The notes under the pieces: model-generated
Database searches by the model: none
What the model saw: only the letters and a program-made list of their open reading frames with translations
Told to the model about the DNA's origin: nothing
NCBI GenBank assembly: GCA_020059605.1
Contig: JAGVBT010000074.1
Coordinates: 1 to 64,000 of the forward strand
From: Deltaproteobacteria bacterium
GTDB lineage: Bacteria; Desulfobacterota; BSN033; UBA1163
Length of the DNA: 64,000 nucleotides
Direction: 5' to 3'
Program-made: the position numbers and the translations under genes
In this document: in pieces, positions 23,682 to 28,155 of the stretch
Layout of the letters: each line of letters starts with the position of its first letter
Position numbering within the stretch: the stretch's first letter is position 1

Positions 23682-25151
23682 CTACTCCAGTCGGTAATTT
23701 GGAGCTTCTTTGGTGATAATCACATCATGGACATGGCTCTCTTTCAATCCGGAGGAGGTGATCCGGATGAATCTTGCCCTTCGCCGCATCTCCTCAATAT
23801 TGCCGGCTCCCATATACCCCATGCCGGCCTTGAGTCCTCCGATGAGCTGATGGATGCAGAAAGAGAGGGCTCCTCGATAGGGGACCCTCCCCTCGATCCC
23901 CTCCGGAACCAATTTTGTTTCACTCTCCACATCACCCTGCATATACCGGTCCTTGCTTCCTTCTTTCATCGCCTCCAGAGACCCCATGCCTCGATAAACC
24001 TTATAGCTTCGCCCCTGGTAGAGTACAATTTCTCCCGGGCTTTCGTCCGCACCGGCAAATAGGTTTCCGATCATCACTGAATTGGCGCCGGCGGCGAGGG
24101 CCTTGGTGAGGTCTCCGGAGAACTTAATACCCCCGTCGGCGATGAGCGGAATGTCATATTCCCTCGTCACCTCCGAAACCTCCATGATTGCGGAAAGTTG
24201 TGGGACGCCCACTCCCGCGATAATCCGTGTCGTACAGATCGAACCCGGCCCCACTCCGACCTTGATGCCGTCCACCCCGGCCTTGACCAGATCGAGCATT
24301 GCTTCTCTGGTGGCGATGTTGCCGCCGATCAACTGGCAATCCGGAAAATTTTTCTTAGTATCCCGGATGGCCTCCAGGACATCCTCCGTGTGACCATGGG
24401 CCGTATCGATGACCAGAACATCAAGCCCTGCCCGCAGGAGCGCCTCGGTTCTCTGTTCCCTGTCCTTCCCTGGACCGATGGCCGCTCCCACCCGGAGGCG
24501 GCCATGGGAGTCTTTGCAGGAATTCGGGTATTTTCTCATCTTTTCAATGTCTTTGATCGTAATCAGGCCTTTTAAGTTGTTGGATTCGTCAACCACCAGC
24601 AATTTTTCGATCCTGTTCTTGTGGAGGATCTCCTTGGCCTGTTCAAGCGTCGTCCCCACGGGAACGGTGATGAGACGGTCCTTGGTCATCACTACCGAAA
24701 TTTTTTCATCCAGTCTCTTTTCAAACCTCAAGTCCCGGTTCGTGAGGATGCCGACGAGCTTCCCTTCTTTTGTGATGGGCACTCCCGAAATCCTGTACCG
24801 TCTCATGATCTCCAGGGCTTCATGGATTCGTTGATCGGGATTCATCGTGATTGGGTTGAGGATCATTCCGCTCTCGGATTTCTTCACCTTATCCACTTCC
24901 ATTGCCTGATCGGCGATGGAGAGATTGCGGTGAATGATGCCAATGCCTCCCTCCTGGGCCATTGCAATGGCCGTTCTTGCCTCCGTCACCGTGTCCATTG
25001 CCGCACTGACCAGCGGGATGTTTAACCGGATCTCTCGTGTCAATTGCGAGCTGATATCGACTTCCTTGGGTAAAACCTCGGAATAGCTGGGAACAAGCAA
25101 AACATCATCAAACGTAAGATATTCCGGTATCCGGCGGTCAGGGTTTTCCAT
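23682..25151 (-). CDS. guaB: inosine-5'-monophosphate dehydrogenase
   Basis: Oxidises IMP to XMP with NAD+, the step before GuaA; 489 residues. The N-terminal TIM-barrel part ([17 protein letters not shown]) is interrupted by two CBS domains (about 95-215) and resumes with the substrate loop GPGSICTTR, whose Cys is catalytic. GGIKFSGD and the flap region ([10 protein letters not shown]) are also normal. The ATG follows an A/G-rich stretch ending AGAGG. It heads the four-gene guaB...guaA run. Confidence 0.97.
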
Positions 25152-25241
25152 CCTCTTTCCTCTTTCCGGGTGCTTGTCACGCCGGGAATTCAGCCGTTGA
25201 GACTCGAAACCGAGCAGGCCATGATTCCCAACGGGGTAAAT

Positions 25242-26963
25242 TTATTTAGATATATCAAACCAATCCCGGTTTGTCAACTCCGATTCCCCATCCGGCGACT
25301 TCGGATTTCCAAGGGATTCAACTTCCCACAATTTTTTCCCCAGGACCTCAAAAAATTTAGAGAGACTTTCGGGCCGGAGGGCCGAGATGGAAACCGCTCC
25401 ATATCTTTTACAGAGCGCCCTCATCTCTTCCGGATCCGCCCTGTCCTCTTTATTAAAGACCAGGAGTCTCGGATGCTCTTCCAATCCCATCTCCAGCAGG
25501 ATTTTCTCGACCGCTTCAATATGGTCCGAGGATCTCGGGCTGCCGGCATCGACCAGGTGAATCAATAGGTCCGAGTCCCTGAGCTCGTCAAAGGTGGGAC
25601 GAAAGGCTCCCGTCAAATCTCTGGGCAGGTCCTTCATGAAACCAACCGTATCAGTAACAACGATCTCCCGACTCCGGTTTTTCATCCGGAGAGGGATCGA
25701 AAACTTTATCCTCCGCGTGGCCGTATCCAGCGTGGCAAAGAGTTGTTCATCCGCTTTGAAATGGCTGCTGGTGAGGAGATTAAAAAGGGTTGACTTCCCC
25801 GCGTTGGTATATCCGATGATGGAGAGGATGGGAATTCCGGCCTTTTTCCGGAGTGCCCTTTGCTGCTCTCTCCTCCGTCCCAACCTTTCCAGTTCCTTTT
25901 CCAGGAGATGAATTCTTTCCCTCACTCTCCGGCGATCGATCTCCAACTTCGTTTCCCCCGGTCCGCGCCCTCCGATCCCCCCGGTCAGCCTTGAGAGGGC
26001 CAATGTTTTCCTGCCAAGGCGCGGAAGGAGGTATTTCAACTGGGCCAGTTCAACCTGGGTTTTACCGTCCCGGGTTTGCGCCCGTTGAGCAAAGATGTCC
26101 AGGATAAGCTGGGTCCGATCAATGACCCTCAGCTCCGTCAGATCAGAGATCGTCGCCATCTGCCCGGGTGTCAGATTCTGATCGAAGATGATCAGGTCCA
26201 CTCCGGATTGCATGCATTTTACCAGCAGTTCTTTTAGCTTCCCCTCTCCCATCAGGGTGGATTGGGAAATATTCTGAGGCCTCTGGATGATCCTCTCGGT
26301 TACCCAAACGCCGCTGGATTCGGCCAGGTCTTTTAACTCCTCCATCGAGTTTTCCAAAACCGCCCTGTTCTCCCGGCTTACCGAGAGGAGGATCGCTCTC
26401 TCCCCGGATCTCCGGGTGGGAAGGACTCTCTGTCCTTTTTGAAATTGATCTTCCAGAGATTGAACCCATCTTAAAAAATCCATATCGATCTGCCTCAGCG
26501 AAGAGGGTGGGTTGATCTCCCACACCCTCTTCTCGGGATTGTCGGGCAGAAGATAGGCGGAGTGGACCGATTCCTGGTCGGTTTTCCCATGGGTTAAAAG
26601 CGCAACCATCATGTCGAGTCTTAAAAGGACAAGGTCGGTTAGATCTTCTTCCGTCAGGGGTTCTCCCTGGAGATGCGTGTGGATCAGCCTCAAACCTCTT
26701 AACCGTGGAATTCCGGTCCGATACCTTGAAAGATCGGGGACCGTTATCCCCCTTTGGTCCCCGACCATGACCATTTCGATCGACCCCCTTCTTCCCACAA
26801 GGATACCAATCTGGCGGCGGATTTCATTCGAAAGATCTATTAGAAGGCGGGCCAACTCAGGCGTGATCATCTTGTTGGGGGGGATTTTTCTCCGGTAGAT
26901 AAATTCAATCCGTTTGACCTGACCGGGTTTTAAACCGAGGGTGTTTCCGAAGACCTTGCTAAT
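25242..26963 (-). CDS. hflX: ribosome-associated GTPase HflX, apparent ATT start
   Basis: HflX GTPase, which splits stalled ribosomes. The N-terminal domain is followed by a helical linker with the family glycine-rich motif (LTGGIGGRGPGETKLEIDRR). The G domain has G1 GYTNAGKSTLFN near 380, G3 DTVGFMKDLP and G4 NKED. The first in-frame ATG (26870) has no ribosome site. Translation upstream stays open for 31 more codons (SKVFGNTLGLKPGQVKRIEF and on), as in related HflX proteins. At its head AAAGGAGG (26969-26976) lies 5 bases before an ATT codon (26961-26963). No ATG, GTG or TTG occurs in frame between the upstream stop (26997) and 26870. I therefore extend to 26963, giving 573 residues. Confidence 0.85.
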   Translation of the reverse strand: MSKVFGNTLGLKPGQVKRIEFIYRRKIPPNKMITPELARLLIDLSNEIRRQIGILVGRRGSIEMVMVGDQRGITVPDLSRYRTGIPRLRGLRLIHTHLQGEPLTEEDLTDLVLLRLDMMVALLTHGKTDQESVHSAYLLPDNPEKRVWEINPPSSLRQIDMDFLRWVQSLEDQFQKGQRVLPTRRSGERAILLSVSRENRAVLENSMEELKDLAESSGVWVTERIIQRPQNISQSTLMGEGKLKELLVKCMQSGVDLIIFDQNLTPGQMATISDLTELRVIDRTQLILDIFAQRAQTRDGKTQVELAQLKYLLPRLGRKTLALSRLTGGIGGRGPGETKLEIDRRRVRERIHLLEKELERLGRRREQQRALRKKAGIPILSIIGYTNAGKSTLFNLLTSSHFKADEQLFATLDTATRRIKFSIPLRMKNRSREIVVTDTVGFMKDLPRDLTGAFRPTFDELRDSDLLIHLVDAGSPRSSDHIEAVEKILLEMGLEEHPRLLVFNKEDRADPEEMRALCKRYGAVSISALRPESLSKFFEVLGKKLWEVESLGNPKSPDGESELTNRDWFDISK

Positions 26964-27046
26964 TGAAACCTCCTTTTTTGTAACCCCCCAATTGAGTCAA
27001 AAATTTGTAACACTTTAGCGGTTTGAAAACCTTTGTAAAATCCCTC

Positions 27047-27210
27047 CCCCGCCTACGCCGAAGCGCCTGCCCTCCGCAAGGCTTCTGGAGGCGGGGCTTC
27101 GCGCAGGCAGGCCACCTCCCTTTGCTCGCCGCGCAAGCGCTGGCGCAGCGGGCTAAAGGGAGGAGATAGGAATTTCCCCTTTTGGCAAAGGGGGATTAAG
27201 GTGGATTTTA
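27047..27210. repeat. composite intergenic palindromes
   Basis: The roughly 430-bp gap before the MBL gene holds no gene. A GC-rich block has nested hairpins: CCTCCCTTT-type and AAAGGGAGG-type arms (27113-27165) around a GCGC-rich centre, and a CGCCTGC/GCAGGC pair before it. This is followed by a C4-T4 / A3-G5 hairpin (27175-27195). The remaining 27211-27387 is AT-rich, with nothing I recognise beyond the MBL ribosome site. Confidence 0.55.
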
Positions 27211-27399
27211 TGATAATTCTTTTTGTCAATTGACTCATGAAACTCATCTTTTCAAAAAGCTAAATTGATACCCTTTTTTTTAAAATTCTAATATGCCCTA
27301 AAAATCAAGTCAACCCTTTGCCAAAAAATAAGAGGGGGTTTGAAATGATCTCATTTTTTATGTTAGTTTTGATGTCATCTTACAATTGGAGGCATCACC

Positions 27400-28155
27400 T
27401 TGCCTGAATTGGTTATTCTCGGATCAGGAACCGGAATTCCCTCCTTGCGAAGGGGGGCCCCGGGCATCCTTCTCATCTCTAAAAACGGGCGGACGGTAAT
27501 CGATAGCGGGTCCGGCGCCATGAGAAACATGCTGAAGGCGGGGATCACCTACCGGGAGATCGACCTTCTCCTCTACACCCACATTCACCCGGACCATACC
27601 GCGGACCTCGTCCCGATTCTCTTCGCGTGTAAATACGGGGATCTCCCGCGGGAAAAGGGGTTGACCTGCGCCGGAGGACCCGGATTCAGGCGCCATTTTA
27701 ATAAGATAAGGAGGCTTTACGGGTCCTGGATCGAACCTGCCACCTACCCTTTGACGATCAAAGAGATCCTTTCAAAACCCCTTCAGTGGGGGGAAATGAA
27801 GGTTTCTTCGAAATCCATGACTCATCTCCCGGGAAGTGTGGGGTATCGAATCGAATGGAGTGACGGGCGTTCGGTTGTCATCTCCGGAGATACGGATGTT
27901 TGTGAAAATATTGTAAGCCTCGCCTCCGGGGCGGACCTCCTCATCCTGGAATGTTCCTTTCCCGATGAGAAAAAAGTGGAAGGTCACCTCACCCCGTCTC
28001 TTGCAGGGAGAATCGCCAGGGAATCCGGATGTCGGAGACTCCTCCTCACCCACCTCTATCCCGTCTGCGATCAATATGACATTGTCCATCAATGCAGGCA
28101 GGTTTATTCAGGCGAAGTCATACTCGGAGAAGACTTGATGAGAATAAAAATTTGA
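27400..28155 (+). CDS. metallo-beta-lactamase fold hydrolase, RNase Z-like
   Basis: MBL-fold protein of 251 residues. It begins MPELVILGSGTGIPSLRRGA, typical of the RNase Z/arylsulfatase branch. The metal site is HIHPDHTAD near residue 62. A second metal Asp lies in ISGDTDVC, with a His in GHLTP and another in LLTHLYPV near the C-terminus. It starts at a TTG with GGAGG 7 bases before. It is shorter than RNase Z (about 305) and lacks a recognisable long exosite arm, so a general phosphodiesterase or other hydrolase is possible. It lies 69 bp before nfeD but a promoter intervenes. Confidence 0.85.
   Translation: MPELVILGSGTGIPSLRRGAPGILLISKNGRTVIDSGSGAMRNMLKAGITYREIDLLLYTHIHPDHTADLVPILFACKYGDLPREKGLTCAGGPGFRRHFNKIRRLYGSWIEPATYPLTIKEILSKPLQWGEMKVSSKSMTHLPGSVGYRIEWSDGRSVVISGDTDVCENIVSLASGADLLILECSFPDEKKVEGHLTPSLAGRIARESGCRRLLLTHLYPVCDQYDIVHQCRQVYSGEVILGEDLMRIKI

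Follow-up and report, generated by a model that had tools for sequence, protein, structure and literature searches.

The window, a 64,000-nucleotide stretch taken as a whole, carries a long-form hflX gene on its minus strand (Table 1). Its product matches TIGR03156 over residues 189-544 (E 1e-121), and the curated cut-off is passed (406 bits against 216.75). Read along the minus strand, an upstream in-frame TGA is followed by a Shine-Dalgarno (SD) sequence, AAAGGAGG, then TTTCA, ATT and AGC AAG GTC, and from that ATT the frame runs uninterrupted down to 25242. The initial annotation had taken this ATT as the start codon, and its placement relative to AAAGGAGG was exact to the base. It had also stated that the open frame holds no ATG, GTG or TTG before the ATG at 26870 and that this ATG has no ribosome site; reading the frame bore out both points, with the bases preceding the ATG, CCCCAACAAG, containing no SD. 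The gene order guaB, hflX, divergent MBL-fold gene (23682-28155) is kept in same-family relatives and in some members of the class.

Table 1 Features at the hflX start in the window
Feature	Position	Strand	Basis
ATT start codon of hflX	26961..26963	-	Sequence reading and comparison with relatives
Shine-Dalgarno AAAGGAGG, 5 nt ahead of the ATT	26969..26976	-	Sequence reading and relatives
hflX coding sequence, long form, 573 aa counted from the ATT	25242..26963	-	TIGR03156; Pfam GTP-bdg_N, GTP-bdg_M, MMR_HSR1
In-frame stop TGA upstream of the hflX start	26997..26999	-	Sequence reading
First in-frame ATG of hflX (residue 32), without SD, not conserved	26868..26870	-	
N-terminal domain, about 185 aa, predicted JAB/MPN-like fold (residues 30-165)	26409..26963	-	Predicted structure

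The N-terminal region of hflX was found in 50 of 59 related genomes. At the 17 same-family loci the aligned start is ATT (15) or ATC (2), preceded by AAGGAG(G) at 5 nt in 16 and by GGAGG at 8 nt in the remaining one. The alignment with relatives proposed earlier as a check thus returned ATT/ATC at the same residue. The outcome that would have refuted the start, a conserved ATG at 26870 without homology upstream of it, did not materialize: homology reaches upstream of 26870, and the position of the window's first ATG is occupied by I or V in most relatives. Given this shared start, the upstream homology and the absence of a conserved ATG, we regard the ATT start of the window's hflX as well supported by comparative sequence evidence.

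To survey start codons more widely, we assembled a census of long-form hflX across Desulfobacterota, Nitrospirota, Nitrospinota and Acidobacteriota from phylum loci, named GTDB contigs (skewed towards query-like sequences), an Acidobacteriota group and relatives of a Nitrospiria genome, which yielded 157 loci after removal of duplicates, 153 of them callable. Near-cognate starts were called at 132 of the 153 (ATC 59, ATT 55, ATA 13, ACG 4, CTG 1), so that ATT, ATC and ATA together account for 127, and canonical starts at 21 (ATG 13, TTG 7, GTG 1). Because start calling relied on SD position, we repeated the count on one fixed column of the alignment, with no selection applied, and obtained a similar outcome (ATT 52, ATC 50 and ATA 11 versus ATG 13 and TTG 7). 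A sample across the phylum covered 27 genomes, each from a different genus (L025-L051); by the fixed-column call, 22 had a near-cognate start and 5 a canonical one. In some clades the start has shifted to codon -4, -6 or -7, always to an ATH codon, and in some Acidobacteriota clades it is displaced outwards by one or two codons or inwards by one, still as ATC/ATT behind an SD. As judged from these alignments, the codon class is conserved while its position drifts, and the near-cognate start is kept in at least three bacterial phyla. Other phyla were sampled unevenly, by single records only: the long HflX of Fusobacterium starts at ATG with an SD, and hits in Nonomuraea and Acetoanaerobium did not show the long N-terminus. 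The hflX on one contig labelled Omnitrophota (L083) is a near-identical match to the copy in a Syntrophobacterales genome (L080), and binning contamination is likely.

Within the family, codons 2-31, which precede the window's first ATG, have pN 0.14 and pS 0.77, resembling codons 32-100 (pN 0.11, pS 0.72), whereas codons -16 to -1 before the ATT (pN 0.49, pS 0.60) show no clear protein constraint. On these rates the protein-coding constraint of hflX begins at the ATT, which is indirect evidence for the protein start. The ATG at 26870 is the only nearby canonical start and probably the one that gene finders would choose, and translation could in principle begin there or at another canonical codon, leaving the ATT stretch untranslated. 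We consider this very improbable, since the 31 codons upstream of 26870 evolve as protein, and since a start at 26870 would remove the first 31 residues of the N-terminal domain and with them the conserved GNTxGLKxxQ motif. Moreover, across the 132 near-cognate loci the first downstream canonical codon is scattered from 3 to 137 codons in (median 32), with an SD-like 5-mer at only 9. An ATG hidden by assembly error, conceivable in a draft genome of 167 contigs and raised earlier as a possible refutation, can be set aside with near certainty: the same codon class recurs in more than 100 independent genomes, and independent assemblies share ATT/ATC.

The region ahead of hflX is also informative. 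In 15 of the 17 same-family loci a TTGACW-N17-TANNAT promoter lies 19-22 nt ahead of the start, and 12 of 17 reach a promoter score of at least 10, compared with 0.4% of shuffles. Same-family loci with this promoter are predicted to have an hflX leader of about 12-16 nt, barely longer than the SD. The family's conserved promoter is absent from the window, in which the gene-proximal sequence has diverged; a palindromic, GC-rich dispersed repeat occupies 27030-27200, between hflX and the divergent gene, and is matched 42 times, in full or in part, in the window's genome. Initiation further upstream, or in another frame with entry by frameshift, might be entertained on the grounds that 36 of the 132 near-cognate loci have a canonical codon upstream in frame, but an SD-like motif accompanies just one of them. 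We give it scarcely any credence: there is no protein constraint upstream of the ATT, the short leaders predicted in the 15 family loci contain no ATG, GTG or TTG, and in several relatives (9 loci in the census) a TAA immediately precedes the ATT/ATC, so that no upstream in-frame start is possible there.

The SD distinguishes near-cognate from ATG starts. An SD of at least 5 nt at proper spacing precedes 105 of the 132 near-cognate starts, compared with 134 of 1,589 internal Ile codons of these genes (8%), and was found at none of the 13 ATG-start loci. The contrast between ATG and near-cognate loci is strong when kinship is ignored (Fisher p 1e-8; 9e-9 at the fixed column without selection). 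On a 133-row tree of the N-terminal domain, only three independent ATG/non-ATG pairs were available (sign test p 0.25), with which significance is unreachable; the tree holds only about three independent origins of ATG, not enough for a phylogenetic test. Parsimony required 4 changes between the near-cognate and canonical classes, the canonical groups being Desulfobacterales (ATG/TTG), Desulfomonilaceae (TTG) and two single ATG loci, one each from Nitrospirota and Acidobacteriota. The tree omits rows of fewer than 120 residues (most of L032-L051, with five canonical starts), and the true number of changes is therefore somewhat higher. The near-cognate codon appears to be the older state within the sampled groups; outer groups are not in the sample.

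At one of the ATG loci, a Nitrospirota hflX without SD (L208), TTGACA-N16-GATAAT ends 7 nt before the ATG, and we predict that its mRNA is leaderless. We had considered that all canonical-ATG hflX loci might be leaderless, and dropped the idea because a fitting promoter was present only at L208.

As controls we examined two other genes of the same genomes. infC starts at ATC, ATA or ATT in most genomes where its start is readable, including the window's own (GAAGGAGGTGGGAATT-ATC), whereas nearly all of the 30 obg loci start at ATG or GTG. The sole near-cognate case among the obg controls, L229, has an apparent ATC start (IKFVDEAKIFVKAGDGGNGC) one codon past an in-frame stop and without an SD. 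At most of the short-form HflX loci compared, a canonical start is available: TTG in E. coli and Bacillus, GTG in Xanthomonas, and likewise among short forms from Acidobacteriota and Desulfobacterota. By this rough comparison, the near-cognate start seems linked to the long form of HflX.

The roughly 185 N-terminal residues of this HflX gave no hit in Pfam, and sequence comparison turned up no relative of known structure. An AlphaFold2 model of the domain (pLDDT 91), compared with known structures over residues 30-165, gave a best Z of 8.1 to 5ld9 (rmsd 3.7, 112 residues aligned), and nearly all of the best 50 structural matches were JAMM/MPN/RadC proteins. Support from Foldseek alone was weak (E 0.014), and a Z of about 8 is moderate; the modelled JAB/MPN (JAMM) fold is therefore only likely, and it does not imply enzymatic activity. 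The canonical JAMM metal motif is EXnHS/THX7SXXD; residues 95-107, HTHLQGEPLTEED, read HTH-x6-T/S-x2-D, one residue shorter, with H95, H97 and D107 invariant. In the literature, no HflX carrying a JAB/JAMM domain was found among the papers listed. At G020:C1:689229-689357, residues 1-43 of the HflX N-terminus recur as a partial second copy with 58% identity, within a 181-codon frame that may represent the N-terminal domain standing alone. Annotation pipelines restricted to ATG, GTG and TTG truncate HflX in these phyla, hiding part of the conserved N-terminal domain.

IF3 disfavours initiation at codons outside the AUG, GUG and UUG set and antagonises leaderless mRNAs (PMC4611024), and as an anti-association factor it keeps 30S subunits from rejoining 50S (PMC4611024; PMC9067457). 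E. coli HflX recycles 70S ribosomes under stress by splitting them (PMC9067457); for the long form, splitting is only inferred. We favour, with some reservation, a reading in which the near-cognate start places long-form hflX under IF3 control, the IF3 dependence itself being inferred. The AUU would presumably be decoded by fMet-tRNA, because the strong SD places the codon in the P site. As IF3 rejects near-cognate codons, HflX production should track the 30S-to-IF3 ratio. Were IF3 scarce, subunits would join as 70S ribosomes that stand idle or are stuck, and the joint release of infC and hflX would restore the anti-association factor and supply a 70S-splitting factor. Comparison of sequences establishes the position, codon class, SD and conservation of the start; fMet decoding, IF3 repression and feedback are all three inferences, with no support from expression measurements, proteomics or IF3 mutants. 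The link to IF3 on the model of infC, suggested in the initial annotation, gains from the shared codon set, the strong SD and the ATC start of the genome's own infC, and is still an inference; the spread of the trait over several phyla had not been seen there.

Consistent with IF3 control are the combination of a near-cognate codon with an SD, the constraint that sets in at the ATT, the few switches on the tree, and near-cognate infC alongside canonical obg. Against it, some clades use ATG, which shows that the near-cognate codon can be replaced; ATG loci lack the SD; and short-form HflX is canonical. In the main competing reading, the near-cognate start is real but merely sets a low, constant level of HflX, with IF3 sensitivity a by-product of no regulatory use, which we regard as possible though doubtful. 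The loss of the SD where ATG is used (0/13 against 105/132) is as compatible with simple selection for weak initiation as with IF3 control. Weak output can, however, be reached otherwise, through GTG or TTG, a weak SD or a weak promoter, and an AAGGAGG SD with a consensus-like promoter (in the family) and an ATH codon across phyla would be an odd route to weakness. Conservation of the start across phyla suggests that cells may deliberately throttle HflX at translation initiation. Returning to IF3 control, we put forward only tentatively an ancient circuit of two genes, hflX and infC, with IF3 acting at the start codon as its readout, in which a shortage of IF3 relative to 30S would raise both factors; ATG lineages may keep IF3 sensitivity by other means, as at L208, whose predicted leaderless mRNA belongs to a class antagonised by IF3.

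AUU is a very rare start codon, familiar chiefly from infC, and to our knowledge few bacterial genes besides infC start at codons disfavoured by IF3. A literature search for hflX with an AUU or other non-canonical start found nothing relevant, with subscription literature largely uncovered; most likely, hflX is to be added to the infC-type genes. With such a start, a single base change would suffice to test whether initiation fidelity and ribosome splitting are directly linked. infC, which encodes IF3, starts at AUU in E. coli, AUC in Streptomyces and AUA in S. aureus, and is autoregulated by its own product. hflX resembles it in having a near-cognate AUN start and a strong SD, kept over great distances, and a product that acts on subunit association, but regulation of hflX, which encodes a 70S-splitting GTPase, would be in trans. 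Listeria hflXr, an HflX paralogue, likewise responds in its expression to the state of translation, but through transcription attenuation via the rli80 leader and not through its start codon (PMC9067457). In S. aureus, ccpN (AUA) and cvfC1 (AUU) yield about 10% of the output of AUG, with ccpN reaching up to about 30% in rich medium; their non-canonical starts are conserved, as in hflX, and lie behind an extended SD, but these are Firmicutes genes of other functions, and hflX is not mentioned (PMC13009471). Repression by IF3 has been proven for the GUC start of Streptomyces sigR, which shares with hflX a conserved non-canonical start and has an extended SD (PMC5472188). sigR encodes a sigma factor and the trait is confined to Streptomyces (32 of 34 GTC, 2 GTT; PMC5472188), whereas that of hflX spans phyla.
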